Translations under genes and position numbers: made by a program
Notes under the pieces: model-generated
Told to the model about the DNA's origin: nothing
What the model saw: the letters and a program-made list of their open reading frames with translations, nothing else
Database searches by the model: none
DNA from: Nannochloropsis salina CCMP1776
Lineage: Eukaryota > Sar > Eustigmatophyceae > Eustigmatales > Monodopsidaceae
Reading direction: 5' to 3'
DNA: 64,000 bases
Assembly: GCA_004565275.1 (NCBI GenBank)
Contig: SDOX01000001.1
Location: forward strand, 682,001-746,000
In this document: positions 45,163 through 54,645 of the stretch, piece after piece
How the letters are laid out: every line of letters starts with the position of its first letter
Numbering within the stretch: the stretch's first letter is position 1

Positions 45163-47163
45163 ATGCGGCCCATGGCCGTGGGCCGAAACAAACGGGTGCC
45201 GATTTACCAAGCATTTCAATTAACGAATGGCAAGATGAGGGAGAAGCTTGTCATCTGCTTTATCGTAGTGGGATTTGTGTTCATTATGCAACAGGTGCTA
45301 ACAAAGGTGAGAGATTTTATGTGCCATCGGGCTTCCCCGCGCGTGAATTCGCCTCCCTTCATGAAGCGGTATTTGATTTTTTTCGGTACGAAAAAGACGC
45401 AGGTGATTTCAGTTTCTTCTTCCGCAAAAGATAAAACTGGTAGCGTTACTCTTCAAAGCTCAAATGAAGAAACGAGGCCATTACATGCAACTTATGGGGA
45501 GGATGAGAAAGTGGCGGCGGTAGAGATGCCCTTATTGAAAACTGGGCCGGATCCCAGCCTTCTGCCACCACGGGCAGACCAAGATTTGCGTTCACCCGAT
45601 CAGCCATGGCCTAAGCCTTTATCCTTAGCGGAGACATCGTTTTGGTTGAATTTACTGGGCAATTACACTGAGGCCGCGCCTGCAAGAAAACTGAGGATGG
45701 CGTCAGACGGGTAAGTGAATGAGACTGCGCTTGAACACTAAGTGCTCGAGTTTCCATGATTCGAGAGCCTACGACAGATAAGAAACATAATCGTGCTACA
45801 ACATCTCTGTCTCCCATGTGACGCTATCTTCTCGATTTCATGCCCAGGGCGGTGCCCGAGCCAATCAACATTAAGCAATGGGTGGGACAAGGAAAATGCA
45901 AGCACGCAAGCATGTATCTGGGCCTCATTCTGGATAGATTGCGACCATGGAGTCAGGGAGGGATTACACAAAGCGTGATAGACGAAGCGGTTTGCATTGG
46001 GAAAAAACGCAGTGACTTCGCCTCTCTCTCGTATCAAATATTGGATGGTGAAGTGTATGCCAGGGCTGAGGGCGACACTTTGAACATCGGCGAATATGCG
46101 AGGCTTATTCTGGACGTGCTTCAGGTCTTAAAGATACCGGACATGGAGTTTGGGGTTTTCAGTGGTCGCGATCTGCCGGTTATGCTACGGCATGAAGTAC
46201 ATCCTATCTTCGCTTACGCCAGCGCCGAGGCCTTCAGCGAGATGCTGTTGCCTTGTCCCTGGTACGTCTTGCCGGCAGCCGAAGAGGTAGATGCACGGTC
46301 ACCATCGTGGAGGCCAGATGGCCTGGAGGACTTCCGAAAAAGGCCAGGAAAGTACGTCAAGGGGCCAAGGAAAAGTGGGGGAGGAGTCTCGAGGATCATG
46401 GTTATGCCCAGCCGATCGATTTCGTAGAAGATTGTAGGAGGAAAGTGCCGTGCCAGGAGTTCTTTCTTATTTTCGCCACAACCACAGGATTTTTTGGCGC
46501 GGAAGCCCCAATGATTTTGTGCCCTATGAGCCCGCAACCCTGAGATTTGCACCCCGCATGAAACTGGTCGAGGCAAGCCATCAATGTCCCGACCTTTTGG
46601 ATGCCCACGTCAGCTCCTCCCTGTCGCTTTTAGCCTTGTTGCCTGCCGAAGAAGAGTGCAAGCTCTATCTTCGCTGGAACGTGTCGACTCCAGCAGGTAT
46701 CTTGGCCGCGGAGGGATGCTCGAAAGAAACTGTCGATGAGTACCGCAGGCAGCATGAATCCGACAGGAGGACGAGTGGCGAGGCCCAGCAAGAGAGCCGA
46801 TACGCCCTCAACATAGATGGAACTGGCTTTTCGGAGAGATACGCCTCCCAACTGTTAAACAATCAACTGGTGTTCAAGGTGGACACTCCTTTTTTTAATT
46901 TCTACAGCCGTTTTTTCTTGCCTTACGAGCATTACGTTCCGGTCAGGTACGATCTATCAGATTTGAAAGACAAGATTTTATGGGCAAACGAAAATATTGA
47001 AGAAGCCCATCGGATCATGTCGCAAGGGGCCAGAAGAGCTCATGCAATATTCCACCCGAACGAGGTCATGTGCTACACAGGCCTTGCTTTGGCTGCCTTT
47101 GGGCGACTTTTGGCCTATGACATCCCTAAGAGGCCAAGGGAGGGTTACGACCAGTACTTGTAA
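45163..47163 (+). CDS. GT90/CAP10-type glycosyltransferase, type II membrane protein
   Basis: Modelled as three exons: 45163-45710, 45848-46286 and 46438-47163, 570 residues. The first junction (GTAAGT donor, phase 2) is firm. The second is less so: GAG|GTAGAT with TTGTAG|GAGG keeps phase 0, but a GTACGT donor at 46352 is also present and would need a different acceptor. An N-terminal hydrophobic segment (LVICFIVVGFVFIMQQVL) is a signal anchor. The catalytic half has HRIFWRGSPND, the CAP10 arginine/serine motif, then NIDGTGFSERYASQLL, LVFKVDTPFFNFYS and YEHYVPVRYDLSDLK, all standard in GT90. Family members include O-glucosyl/xylosyltransferases (POGLUT) and fungal CAP10. The substrate is unknown; ER or Golgi lumen is expected. 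Confidence 0.82.
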
Positions 47164-47530: not shown

Positions 47531-50500
47531 CTACAAATAGGACAGATGCCTCCTGAAGAAGTACCAAGACACGGAGAAGAGCGTCGCGGCCATACACCAG
47601 AAGAAAAGGTAGCCCCGCGGCCAAAGAAGCTCAGGCATGGTTGGTTCTCCCTCCTTGTTCATGAAATTCATCTGTTTCGTATCGAGGACGACAGAGATTT
47701 GGTGTGTTAGTCTCGAGACAAAATCTCTGTGTGACTGCCCCCTCAATGCCTCCCCCAACGTACCCCGTACACGCCCGTCAGAAACTGAAGCGGCACGAAC
47801 ATTGTCGTGACGACTGTGAGCGTGTACAGCACCTCGTTGGTGCGCTGGTCCTACGTTTGGAGGGAAATGTGTGCAACTTGTGAGTTCAGGAAGTCATAGG
47901 GGAGAAAGCAGCCAACAAAGGCCGGGTCAATGGTACGATCGATTGCACGCCTAAGCCCAGGGCGACCTGACGAGTCCCAAGCACAGCCCTCCCTTTTCCC
48001 TTCCCCCCCTCCCCCCCCCCCCGACTGTTACCCTCAAACTCTTGAATTCCTCCTTGGTCGAGTCGCACATCTCGATGCAGCCGCCTATCTCCTCCAGCCC
48101 TCGAACCACGTGATCGAGGACATCTTCCAGGTACACTTTCATGTCCTGTCCAATCTGCTCGTCGTCCATCAGATGCCGCACCACCGCGGTCATGGGCCGG
48201 ATACGGCGTTGCAGGCGTTGCAGCTCGCTTTTCATCCCGAGCACGAGACGCATGTGTTCCTGCAGGGGTCGAACGAGAAACGTAGACGAGAATTTGAGGA
48301 ACCGTGAGGGCACTGACGTCCTCGCACCTTCCTAAAATCCGGTCGTGAACCCCGGTATGTGTCCGGAGCACCCAAGACGTGGAAGTCGCACCGCAACACG
48401 GCGTGGTCGGGGCCACCTACGAGGTCTCACCTCCCTCGTCTTTCCCTTACCTTCTTGAAAGTGCTCTCGTTGCGATGTAGCTGAGCCTGAAAGAGCCGAA
48501 CCCGGGTCCGGTATGCCTGGGCGATGGGGATGAGGAAATCCACCACCTCGTCCAGGATCCGGTACAGCAAATGCTTGCTGTTGCCCTGCCGCAAGGTAGA
48601 GTAGTCGACCTTCAACGCCGTCACCAGTCTCTCAAAAATGTGGCCATGGGAGAAGGAGGAATTGGCGCCGCCGACGCCGCTGTAGGGGGACGTCGATCCG
48701 CTCTCTTGTCCGTCCCACCCGTAGCGGACATGGTGCTCATAGTGGGAAGCCGCCATGGAGTCGTCCTTGATCAGCCCGTCCTCCCCACTGTCGAGGTCAC
48801 TGGCTTCACGACCGCCTCCGCGACGAAAGCGTAAGCCATGGGTGCTCGCAGAGCCCCCCACGAAGGAGGAGTTCCCCCCTTTGGCCATGGATGCCGATGA
48901 TTCGGTCCGGCTGCCCATGCCTTTCCATTCCTCCCCAGCCCCTTTCTTCCCCCCCGGGCCTTCCTCGCCTTGAAGCATCTCGTCCGTCTCGCTGTTGAAT
49001 GTCTCCCATTTTCCGTGCAGGGAGATCAAAGTGTCGTACGAAGGAGCGCCCGCCATGAAAATGCACAGCTTGCTCCACTCCACCCGGAAGTGAAAGTCGG
49101 ACCACGACTCTTTCCCTTTGTGGCGGCGATCGTTCGGCGAGGCCTGCCCCGAGCCCTGAAGCCCCCCGCGCTCCCTCTGACCCGTGGCCCCATGCGCCAA
49201 GAGAGCAGCCGCTTCGGCCGTGGATTTGATGATACTCGAGTAGCGGCGTCGCTGCTGGCGAAGGGTTTTCAAGGCCTGAAAAGCCCCGAGGGACAGGAGG
49301 GAGGGGACGGGAGAGGGGGTGGAAGAGAAAAGGAGAAAAGGTCGGAAAGAACGCTTTGGAGGCCAGAGCAGCTCCACGGGTGCAGGAAAATAAAGAACTT
49401 TTCTCCCTTCACCGTCCCCTCACGTACCTCCCGGCTCTCCCGCGTCAGCCTAAAGAAGGGCATGACAATGAAATAGTGGCAGCCGTACTTGTTCACCTTG
49501 GGCTGTTGATCCTCCAGTTTCAGTGCGTCCTCCACGCAGAGAGGGTGCAGGCTGTACTTAATCGCGAAACGGAGGATGGTAAGGCGATCCAAGCCTTCCA
49601 AGTGCAGCCAGCGCATCATGAAATCCTTCGGGTCTCGATGCGTAGTGAAGAAAGCGTAGGTGTCCGCGACGGGAATTTCGGCAGAGTACGTCTTCTCGTT
49701 GTAGTCCAAAGAGGAGAATTTGACCACTTCCATCCGCCCCTGGCCGGTGGAGTTCTTCCTCCCCCCGTTCTCGCCTTCCTCGTCCTCGTCCACCAGGAAA
49801 TAGGCCGGACATGTCGTCCCATAATCGGGGTAAAGCGCAGGGGTAATCCGCCCGTCCGAAAACCCCCCAACCGCGATACTCAATTCGCTGCCAACGTGGA
49901 GACCGCGGCTTTCGTCCCCAACACCCGCTCCTGAATGCAATTTGGGAGCCGATCCAGCAAGGGTGGACAGACCGTTTTTGATTACTTCCTCCACCCCCTC
50001 TGCAGGGAGGCCCTCTGCTCCCCCTCCCTGTTCAGTGGTCGGCGCCATTTCACCTGCTGCCCGACTAAACGGAAGAGGACTGCGGCTTTGCGTGAACCTC
50101 CCATGTTCCCCCCTCTCCTCTATCCGGTCTTTGGTCGCCAGCTGTCCTTGTCGCATGGCCATGGGAGGAAGGAAGAGCAACTCCATCTTCAGGCGTTGCA
50201 CGATCCGCTTGAAAGCCGCAAAGGTGATCCGATTCTCATCTTTTCTCCCCCCTCTCCCTTTCCGCGCACTCAATTGTCCACTGGTCACACCGCGCCTGCC
50301 CCCCGCTAGCTCAGGACCAAGCCCTTCCCCTTCTTCCTCGCTCTCTGCCCCTCCGGCCCCCTCTCTGTTGGTCGTGATCTTCTCACAGGTCTCCCACAGC
50401 AACTCAAACTCACGCGTGCCTTCCAAATTGGTAAATCCCTGTTGAGCCAGGCCTTGCAGCAATTCAGGCTTGCTCAGACGTCCATCGAAGTCCCTACCAG

Positions 50501-50863
50501 TGCCCGATGACACGAAGAGGAAGGGAGTGAAAGATCATCAGCCAGGCATTTCGGAGGGGTACGGACGCCCCCAAGGCCGCCTGAACCTACAGCTTTGGCT
50601 CTCTCCCCCGATCATTTTCTCCATACGCTTAACCCTCTCCATTTCCTCGATACGTACCTGTCAAAGGCGTCATATAAGTTTCGGAGCCGGCCGTCCGTCA
50701 CATCGATCACTTCCTGCACGTCTGGGGAGTAGACGTCAATTGGCAGCCCATGTTGCGCGATCGTGGACCACACGGACGCATCCAGCCCATCGAGTTGATC
50801 CACCGAGAAAATCTGCGTTGACGTGTTGCGTAAAGCAAGTGGGGGCTGCATACAGTAAGACAT
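47531..50863 (-). CDS. CorA-type Mg2+ channel with N-terminal EF-hand
   Basis: Six exons: 50863-50658, 50493-49428, 49275-48451, 48259-48032, 47850-47764 and 47671-47531. Every junction is GT-AG and phases agree, giving 850 residues. Residues 68-79 are DRDFDGRLSKPE, a textbook EF-hand loop (acidic at 1, 3 and 5, Gly at 6, Glu at 12) split by the first intron. A partner hand, interrupted by a Glu/Gly-rich insertion, ends ENRITFAAFKRIV. The CorA cytosolic domain includes LHPLCVEDALKLEDQQPKVN; the long stalk helix includes VYLEDVLDHVVRGLEEI. TM1 is LTVVTTMFVPLQFLTGVY and the selectivity motif Gly-Met-Asn lies at 804-806, split by the last intron. TM2 is YLFFWCMAATLFSVSWYFF. A large Ser/Gly-rich insertion (about 520-650) sits inside the cytosolic domain. 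No leader peptide is obvious, so the membrane is unknown. Confidence 0.88.
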
Positions 50864-52400: not shown

Positions 52401-54645
52401 TCAATCCAAGGTGAAGAAGGCGTCCATCCCATCCAGTCTTTTCATTCCTGTTCCCGGACTACTGTTGAATCCAAAGTAATTGACCGCTACCATGGGCAGC
52501 AGCGCATAAGGATGCCGCCGAACAATCGCCGTCACCACCCCTACGTCCACGACGGCCTGCGCCCAGGTCCAAGCGGCGAAAGACTCGCTCTCCTCCACGT
52601 ACGTGTTTTGCTTGAGCCAATTCCGCAAGCCATAAGTCCCGTACCCGGCATTAAGCATGACTGCGCCGATACCATTGACCGAGTAGGCAATCACAGGAGG
52701 GACGAGAGGGAAAGAGGCGGCGGAGCGCATGACCCCGTACAGCCCTCCCACGACCAGGCAGGCCATGGAAGAGGTGTAGCACCGCATGGCGTAGACGGAG
52801 CGCAAGCGTGCAAAGGGTCGACCCAAGGTGCCCTCTTCGCGGCCCGCCACCGATTCCACCGCGTCTGCGATCGCGCAGTCAGTCAGATGGGAGGGTAGGA
52901 GGAGGGAAGAGCTGGAAAGGAAGGAGGGCGTGTCTTGGCCCAGGCAGCGGTCCACTGCCGAAGCCTCTCGCCTCGTCGTCCACGGCGTCGCGCACTTCTT
53001 AACGGCGCTTTCCTCCGCGCTTCCATCGCTCAGAACTCCCCTCTCCACCCCTACCGACGGTAGACTACGCCTCTCCTTCACCTCCTGCTCTTTGACGGTC
53101 CAGTAGCGATCCAGGACGTTGTGAACCGCCTCCACCGCGTGCACGAAGGCCGATGCGTTCCTCCCCTCCGCCTGGGCCAAGGGCACCAAGCCTGCCAGCA
53201 CGTCCCGCTCCAGCAGCAAGGTCTCGCATGCCTTGGCGTCCTTTGAGATGCTCCCGAGGAAACGTGCCACCTCCGCCTCCACCTCTCGCATGCGCCGCCG
53301 CACTTGGTCGTCCACGCGCCCGGGAAAAAATTTGGCGTAAATGGACATGCGATGATCCTCGAACAGACCCGCCGCGTTGCCCACGTGCTCGTCGCAGAGG
53401 TCGAGCAGCCGCAGCATGAGGCTGGCCTTGTGGACCAGGGAAGGGGTGATCAAGGGCAGTACGTCGTCGGGCCGGGCCCCTAGGACGGGGTCGTGTCCTC
53501 CCGACACTCCGAGTAAGACGACAGCCTCCTGTCGTGGACGCATGGGATGGAGAATGAAGGTGACTTTACACAAATGTTTGGCAAAAGAAATTCTAAAGAA
53601 TAAAAGTTTAGAGTGCTGCAAAGCATTGGCAGCAGTTCTGTATCTGTGTCCTGACATGAGTGCAGGCGCCTAGTAAGAACACAGCTCCCCGCTCGATCCG
53701 CTGCAACTCCATCTGCCGCCAATGACCGACCCTCCTTCTTTTGTTCCCCTTCCTTACCTTGTTGACAACGCCCTCCACCAGGTTGTTCAGGGTCTCCAAG
53801 AGGGTGACAAACACCTCGGCAGAGGCGTTCCCTGCGGAGTGCCCAAAGCCCTGAAAGCGGCCGCCCTCCACCAACATCTCCTCCTCCAGCATGTCGACCA
53901 GTCCTTGTACAATGACAGGCCGGGCAGCCACCATGCGAGCCACGTGCGCGTTCCTAACCAGTCGGTTCACCACGTAGGCAGCACACAGTCGGACGGTGGG
54001 GTCCTCGCTCTGCAGCCCCTCTTCCAGCTTGCTCAGAACGCCTAGGCGGACGAGCTTGGGTTTGATATCAAAAGACGGAAAGAGGGCGACGGTATTGTCC
54101 ACGCCGTGAAGCAGGCTGGACCAAACAAAGTAGACGAGACCCAGGGACGACTGGGTAGGGGCCAAGGCCATGAGGCCTCGCCAGTCCACCAAGGCTGCCA
54201 GAGGAGATAGATCCAAACGCGGTCCGTCTGTGCTGATTTCCAGGTATTTGAACATGGAGAAAAGCCCCAATATTTGCGAGCGGGTTCCCCCGGCTTCTTC
54301 ATTGTACCCCGCAGCCGCCACCAAGTCCCCATTCGCGTGCTTTTGGTAGAAAAAAGAGGACCAGCACAGCGTGCCGAGGAGGAAGGGAGGAATCATGAGA
54401 TGGCCCACCGTGCGGATGCCGGAAGATTCGTAGGTGCCATGTGGACGGATGTGGGAAGGAAAACGGTTATGCCGTCGAGCTGCTTGAGGAAGCAAGGTAG
54501 AGGGTGGGGGGCAGCCCGGGGCGTCGAAGTGGTAGGACCTCTTTCTTCCTGCCCGGCTGGCTCTTGGGACGACGCGGGCGACGAGATCGGGGAGCGCACG
54601 ACATGTGGATTGTCGAGAGTATCTTGCCAGACCGTAGCGCAGCAT
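52401..54645 (-). CDS. Armadillo-like membrane protein with mitochondrial-type presequence
   Basis: Two exons, 54645-53758 and 53528-52401, joined in phase 0 over a 229-bp intron (GTAAGG...CAG), give 671 residues. The start MLRYGLARYSRQSTCRALPD, rich in Arg and Ser with no acidic residue before position 20, looks like a mitochondrial presequence. A hydrophobic segment occurs near GHLMIPPFLLGTLCWSSFFY. Residues about 170-330 resemble armadillo/HEAT helices (LVRLGVLSKLEEGLQ, PTVRLCAAYVVNRLVRN, VFVTLLETLNNLVEG). The C-terminal part has two or three hydrophobic helices (MACLVVGGLYGVM, LVPPVIAYSVNGIG, AVVDVGVVTAIV). I do not recognise the full architecture. A role as a membrane-bound scaffold is only inference. 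The longer frame upstream begins at TTG, so the ATG at 54645 is chosen. Confidence 0.65.

Follow-up and report, generated by a model that had tools for sequence, protein, structure and literature searches.

A gene in a 64,000-nucleotide stretch of the Nannochloropsis salina CCMP1776 genome (hereafter the window) encodes a CorA-type channel with a pair of EF-hands at its N-terminus. This fusion is real and conserved: two paralogues share it, as do many dinoflagellate proteins, and the GMN motif and the Mg2+-sensing residues of CorA are kept. It marks a family rather than a one-off fusion, and the family is broader than was thought in the sequence-only reading that first described the gene. As judged from sequence, we put about even chances on the protein being a CorA-type Mg2+ channel in which Ca2+ binding by EF-hand 1 tunes Mg2+ entry. 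Ca2+ signals may, in such algae, adjust Mg2+ uptake.

Results

Gene model and exon layout

The gene occupies positions 47531-50863 of the window on the minus strand. Its six exons, spliced from genomic DNA, predict a protein of 850 residues in which the EF-hand pair is followed by a linker and then by the CorA domain with GMN. All five introns are GT-AG and a single open frame runs throughout; the coordinates and parts originally given for the gene are correct. Exon 1 (50658-50863) encodes an N-terminal helix region and the first helix of EF-hand 1. Exon 2 (49428-50493) supplies the remainder of EF-hand 1, EF-hand 2, the linker and the beginning of the CorA soluble domain, which continues with an insert into exon 3 (48451-49275), where the long stalk helix begins. 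The stalk helices extend through exon 4 (48032-48259). Exon 5 (47764-47850) carries the first transmembrane helix (residues 781-801, 47835-47773) and the G of GMN (47766-47764), and exon 6 (47531-47671) carries the MN (47671-47666), the second transmembrane helix (47611-47555) and the C-terminus. The orthologue P0001 is co-linear with the window protein over 92% of the query. Its N-terminus differs, and the start codon is therefore the least certain part of the gene model.

On the plus strand, Pfam Glyco_transf_90 (cutoff 24) is matched by two frames, 45822-46427 at 28.1 bits and 46438-47163 at 78.4 bits. They are probably one intron-containing gene, whose end lies a little short of the CorA gene's 3' end, the two genes standing tail to tail. 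Upstream of the CorA gene is a 422-residue minus-strand open frame (52401-53669) with no Pfam match at E<=0.05.

The channel part is a CorA

Pfam CorA (PF01544) matches the window protein at E 3.4e-45 and 155 bits (cutoff 27), with its best stretch at residues 644-845. There are two C-terminal hydrophobic stretches, at 781 and 825, and GMN (residues 804-806) comes after the first, with intron 5 lying between G and M. The full CorA domain with a GMN motif that was read from the raw sequence is thus borne out. By alignment, the inter-subunit Mg2+ site residues of Thermotoga maritima CorA are also kept: E390-D391 (49527-49532, minus strand) correspond to E88-D89, and D745 (48124-48122, in exon 4) to D253. 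D89, D253 and E88 belong to Mg2+ sites of the T. maritima channel and are proposed sensors, according to the available text of PMC10632456; M1-site mutants of that channel still crystallised closed, as the accessible part of PMC8865849 has it. Across the EF-bearing alignment rows, with gaps counted, GMN is present in 94/105 and Asp at the D253 position in 97/105 (four gaps in that column). The predicted model of P0001 stops at the first transmembrane helix; its best Foldseek match is 8tmc_C, a structure of T. maritima CorA (E 1.4e-11, TM-score by target 0.72). Profile, GMN and helices, soluble-domain fold (from the P0001 model) and Mg2+ site residues all place the protein in the CorA (2-TM-GxN) class.

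Searching solved structures with a threshold of E 10 returned 21 rows, 14 of which are CorA, ZntB or CmaX channels. An MRS2-type channel is not supported, as these 14 channel rows comprise the CorA/divalent/magnesium transporter set, ZntB or CmaX. A location in the plastid or vacuole membrane had also been suggested. The N-terminus has no hydrophobic stretch, since hydropathy over 19-residue spans that begin within the first 100 residues peaks at 0.68, and a plastid or vacuole address is therefore without sequence support.

The EF-hand module belongs to the channel gene

EF-hand 1 (residues 53-85) spans 50445-50707 on the minus strand, in the pieces 50707-50658 and 50493-50445. Its loop, DRDFDGRLSKPE, covers residues 68-79 (50662-50658 and 50493-50463) and is split by intron 1 inside codon 69. 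The ligand set is complete: the loop has the 12 residues, the oxygen ligands at positions 1, 3 and 5 and the Glu/Asp at 12 of the EF-hand superfamily, and positions 1, 3, 5, 6 and 12 all fit. To call this hand canonical, as was done at the outset, is apt for the ligand positions but goes too far otherwise. Position 4 is Phe, which departs from the PROSITE EF-hand pattern (no match in the window protein), and Pfam stays under its gathering cutoffs (EF-hand_6 17.2 bits, cutoff 25; EF-hand_5 15.5 bits, cutoff 25.9). The profile search proposed for the spliced protein therefore recovers CorA decisively and the EF-hand only below cutoff. EF-hand 2 (residues 86-176, 50172-50444, minus strand) is degenerate, without ligands, and its loop is interrupted by a low-complexity insert of about 47 residues (107-153, 50381-50241). 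That a second, interrupted hand is real, as had been proposed, agrees with the helices of the P0001 model and with the equivalent hand of P0128, which is complete (DSDDDNQVDREE).

An EF motif alone is no proof, because roughly 1% of shuffles contain one like it: among 20,000 shuffles of the window protein, 191 had a ligand-complete loop whose position 6 is Gly and 1,697 a looser form. It is conservation that settles the question. EF-hand 1 is identical between the window protein and P0001 at 33/33 residues, against 47/116 aligned linker residues; the C-terminal part of CorA is identical at 157/167, and EF-hand 1 matches P0004 at 31/33. The predicted model of P0001 has a helix-loop-helix at EF-hand 1 and helices at EF-hand 2, and a Foldseek search started from the EF model found no match at E<=10. 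Six of the seven non-channel rows among the solved structures are presumably EF-hand Ca2+-binding proteins; their alignments, all inside residues 45-122, have E 0.3-2.1, and none is significant taken singly.

The shuffles and the sub-threshold Pfam scores would also suit a chance motif or an exon misjoined from another gene. We find this explanation hardly credible, since the relatives and paralogues rule it out. At the site corresponding to the exon-1/exon-2 join, P0001, P0004 and P0136 are contiguous and show the same order of modules. At least 11 EF-bearing rows among the matches listed carry mmetsp transcript names, dinoflagellate proteins among them, and in those rows both modules therefore lie on one transcript-derived protein. 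Two paralogues on another contig share the layout. This is one fusion gene, as first supposed, and not two. In P0003 and P0130 the intron is entered at this join, as in the window's own frame.

A family with complete and broken loops

A single-sequence database search yielded 5 proteins, a core-profile search 162 at E<=1e-5 (120 of them listed) and a second profile 25, with about 8,000 candidates scored in each protein database search. The collected set holds 148 proteins, 145 from databases and three from the window's genome. Our own EF-module profile detects the module in 105/148, and the concern that no other CorA might carry an EF-hand can be set aside. This profile was built from the same proteins and its E-values are not independent; the independent check is Pfam on 63 relatives, which at E<=0.001 finds CorA in 63/63, EF-hand_7 in 20, EF-hand_6 in 17 and EF-hand_1 in 10. 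Curated cutoffs are exceeded by P0128 for EF-hand_1 (33.4, cutoff 25.4) and, for EF-hand_7 (cutoff 30), by P0011 (36.9), P0049 (31.1) and P0051 (30.9). The module covers at least 60/79 profile positions in 103 of the 105 proteins and is partial in P0002 and in the best stretch of P0128. The 43 proteins without it are bacterial-type CorAs, fragments, P0088, P0092 and P0097 (which are truncated inside the module) and a few longer eukaryote-like proteins, P0119 among them.

The named eukaryotic relatives among the matches listed are dinoflagellates; class Dinophyceae was checked for three named species, and for other rows the term is extended by the tree. A search of other organisms for the same architecture, suggested with ochrophytes in mind, thus succeeded in many dinoflagellate proteins and gave no other named ochrophyte among the matches listed, with about 8,000 candidates scored per search. 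Individual relatives vary. P0086 and P0090 have the reverse pattern, with EF-hand 2 ligand-complete (DENDDGHLQF[VD]E) and EF-hand 1 incomplete, and P0090 adds a WW domain (42.4 bits, cutoff 26.9). SAM-like matches fall below cutoff in P0051 (23.4, cutoff 27) and P0018 (15.8, cutoff 20.5). P0119 of Symbiodinium microadriaticum (599 aa) belongs to this CorA group, and a profile scan did not find the EF module in it; perhaps it is a family member that lacks EF-hands, or its gene model is faulty.

The window's assembly (26.5 Mb, 103 contigs) has at least six CorA matches, which we read as at least five loci. Two of these lie head to head on contig C15, both with the EF-hand/CorA layout of the window gene. 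C15m (exons 1001563-1000826 and 1000593-998968) has GMN and the loop DRDKTGNLSRPQ, and has therefore lost Glu 12. In C15p (L008; span 1001874-1004742, exons 1001874-1002149, 1002584-1004420 and 1004612-1004742) the loop is lost; GTN replaces GMN and Gly occupies the D253-equivalent position. The ligand-complete loop is gone from both. A six-frame profile scan found no EF module in the fetched stretches of the C46 and C29 CorA loci, so the module is present in three of the five CorA loci so counted.

Glu at position 12 of an EF loop generally favours Ca2+ over Mg2+. Loop 1 is ligand-complete in 37/98 complete rows, and Glu stands at position 12 in 37/37 of these loops, which favours the Ca2+ reading. 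Loop 2 is ligand-complete in 3/105, and both loops are complete in P0128 (DDNNSGVLTLNE and DSDDDNQVDREE), which has CorA as well. A general Ca2+ role is weakened because a ligand-complete loop exists in only 39/105 members and in neither paralogue. For the window protein itself, the unusual Phe at loop position 4, a second hand without ligands and the sub-cutoff Pfam scores also count against Ca2+ tuning.

The broken loops could mean that the EF-hand pair is mainly structural or docking, serving pentamer assembly or a partner protein, with metal binding incidental and lost in most members. The helices are kept in the 66/105 members that lack any ligand-complete loop, and the additional modules of some relatives (WW in P0090, SAM-like below cutoff in P0051 and P0018) would fit such a role. 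We regard this explanation as unlikely, if a serious competitor: P0001 and P0136 keep loop 1 of the window protein in full, P0004 keeps it with one S/T change, and the recurrence of complete loops in over a third of the complete rows is not expected from drift alone.

A site that is occupied need not hold Ca2+. At the Mg2+ levels of the cytosol, EF-hands are able to bind this ion, and EF-hand 1 could be filled by Mg2+ as an additional sensor, reinforcing the feedback that Mg2+ is known to have on CorA. The channel is of the Mg2+ type with its own sensor residues retained, and a Mg2+ sensor has been built on centrin 3, as the accessible text of PMC3846734 describes. The invariant Glu at position 12 speaks for Ca2+ instead, and we judge a Mg2+-filled EF-hand to be quite improbable, more so than a structural or docking role.

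Origin of the fusion

We built a tree by quick search from the CorA pore region alone, using 63 chosen rows; P0096 and P0101 were left out on account of their coverage. On this tree, 36 rows of the EF-hand/CorA family part from 27 EF-less bacterial-type CorAs at a branch with SH-aLRT 99. Of the 36, 35 carry the module in whole or in part, and the other, P0125, is a fragment missing its N-terminus. P0128 adjoins the window group (SH-aLRT 89) on a long branch; because P0128, C15m and C15p all have long branches, their exact positions are unsure.

The nearest loci comprise the best 80 of at least 552 prokaryotic loci and 1 viral locus, and the EF module is found in 0/81; the top profile match, at E 0.38, is a 37-residue frame. 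On this count we reject the idea that the fused form came from a prokaryote or a virus. The sequences are compatible with, and do not prove, a single fusion in eukaryotes, on a tree that lacks EF-less eukaryotic CorAs. Tentatively, one could envision an old family of Ca2+-gated Mg2+ channels that arose when an EF-hand pair was fused once to a bacterial-type CorA. Such a fusion would have provided a direct line from Ca2+ to Mg2+ entry, common at the least to dinoflagellates, the lineage of this alga and that of P0128, and later duplicates would have lost Ca2+ sensing. This history seems to us possible rather than probable.

Discussion

Mg2+ itself is known to exert feedback on CorA channels. 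The simplest reading of the fused protein is that this feedback would be retained and an EF-hand input added on the channel's soluble side. The EF-hand pair and the CorA soluble domain would share one side of the membrane; on a rise in Ca2+, EF-hand 1 would bind the ion, and its movement could switch the soluble domain from a closed to an open state or back. Ca2+ would in this way tune Mg2+ entry, in addition to the feedback from Mg2+, in a direction, opening or closing, that cannot be read from sequence. In the predicted model of P0001 the linker (residues 159-260) is long and disordered, with pLDDT under 50, and, so modelled, does not fix the EF-hand relative to the channel.

If Ca2+ does tune this channel, the protein is a direct physical link from Ca2+ signalling to Mg2+ balance in algae. 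Family members with complete and with broken loops are natural comparisons, and one small algal genome holds both kinds.

The databases already contain EF-hand/CorA proteins, under automatic names only. We found no description of the architecture in the accessible open-access literature, in line with the original remark that no CorA with an EF-hand had been described. In the available text of three papers the terms occur apart or in other senses: in a foraminifer paper 'CorA' stands solely inside the word coral (PMC10284544), an Andalucia paper mentions CorA and EF-hands separately (PMC7050145), and a human MRS2 paper uses 'EF-hand' once, about other proteins (PMC9909464). As far as could be seen, the architecture is visible in databases and apparently undescribed within the open-access literature.

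Among known systems, T. maritima CorA (PDB 2bbj, 2iub, 3jcf and the 8tm series) shares with the window protein the soluble-domain fold, two C-terminal transmembrane helices, GMN and the E88/D89/D253 equivalents. It has no EF-hand, and the window protein adds the EF-hand pair, the long linker and inserts. The dinoflagellate proteins, such as P0006 of Zooxanthella nutricula (UniRef 'EF-hand domain-containing protein') and P0011, share the two-module order; they differ in that some have an N-terminal extension and SAM-like matches and many EF loops are incomplete. P0128, which stands for 39 member sequences, has the EF-hand pair, the CorA soluble domain and the first transmembrane helix in common with the window protein. 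Unlike the window protein, it is ligand-complete in both loops, and the listed protein stops before GMN.

Mitochondrial MRS2, of the wider CorA superfamily, is likewise a Mg2+ channel of the GMN type whose soluble domain senses metal (accessible text of PMC9909464 and PMC10632456), but it is absent from the solved-structure matches up to E 10. Its N-terminal domain bound Ca2+ only at about 1 mM, and the available text of PMC9909464 mentions no EF-hand in it. Closest in the way it works is the mitochondrial ATP-Mg/Pi carrier (APC/SCaMC), whose transport depends on Ca2+ through a Ca2+-binding EF-hand domain fused ahead of the transporter, as given in the accessible portion of PMC6283063. The carrier has an unrelated fold and substrate and four EF-hands, and its regulation by Ca2+ is experimentally known. 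It thereby offers a precedent for the logic of a Ca2+-tuned channel such as we propose for the window protein.
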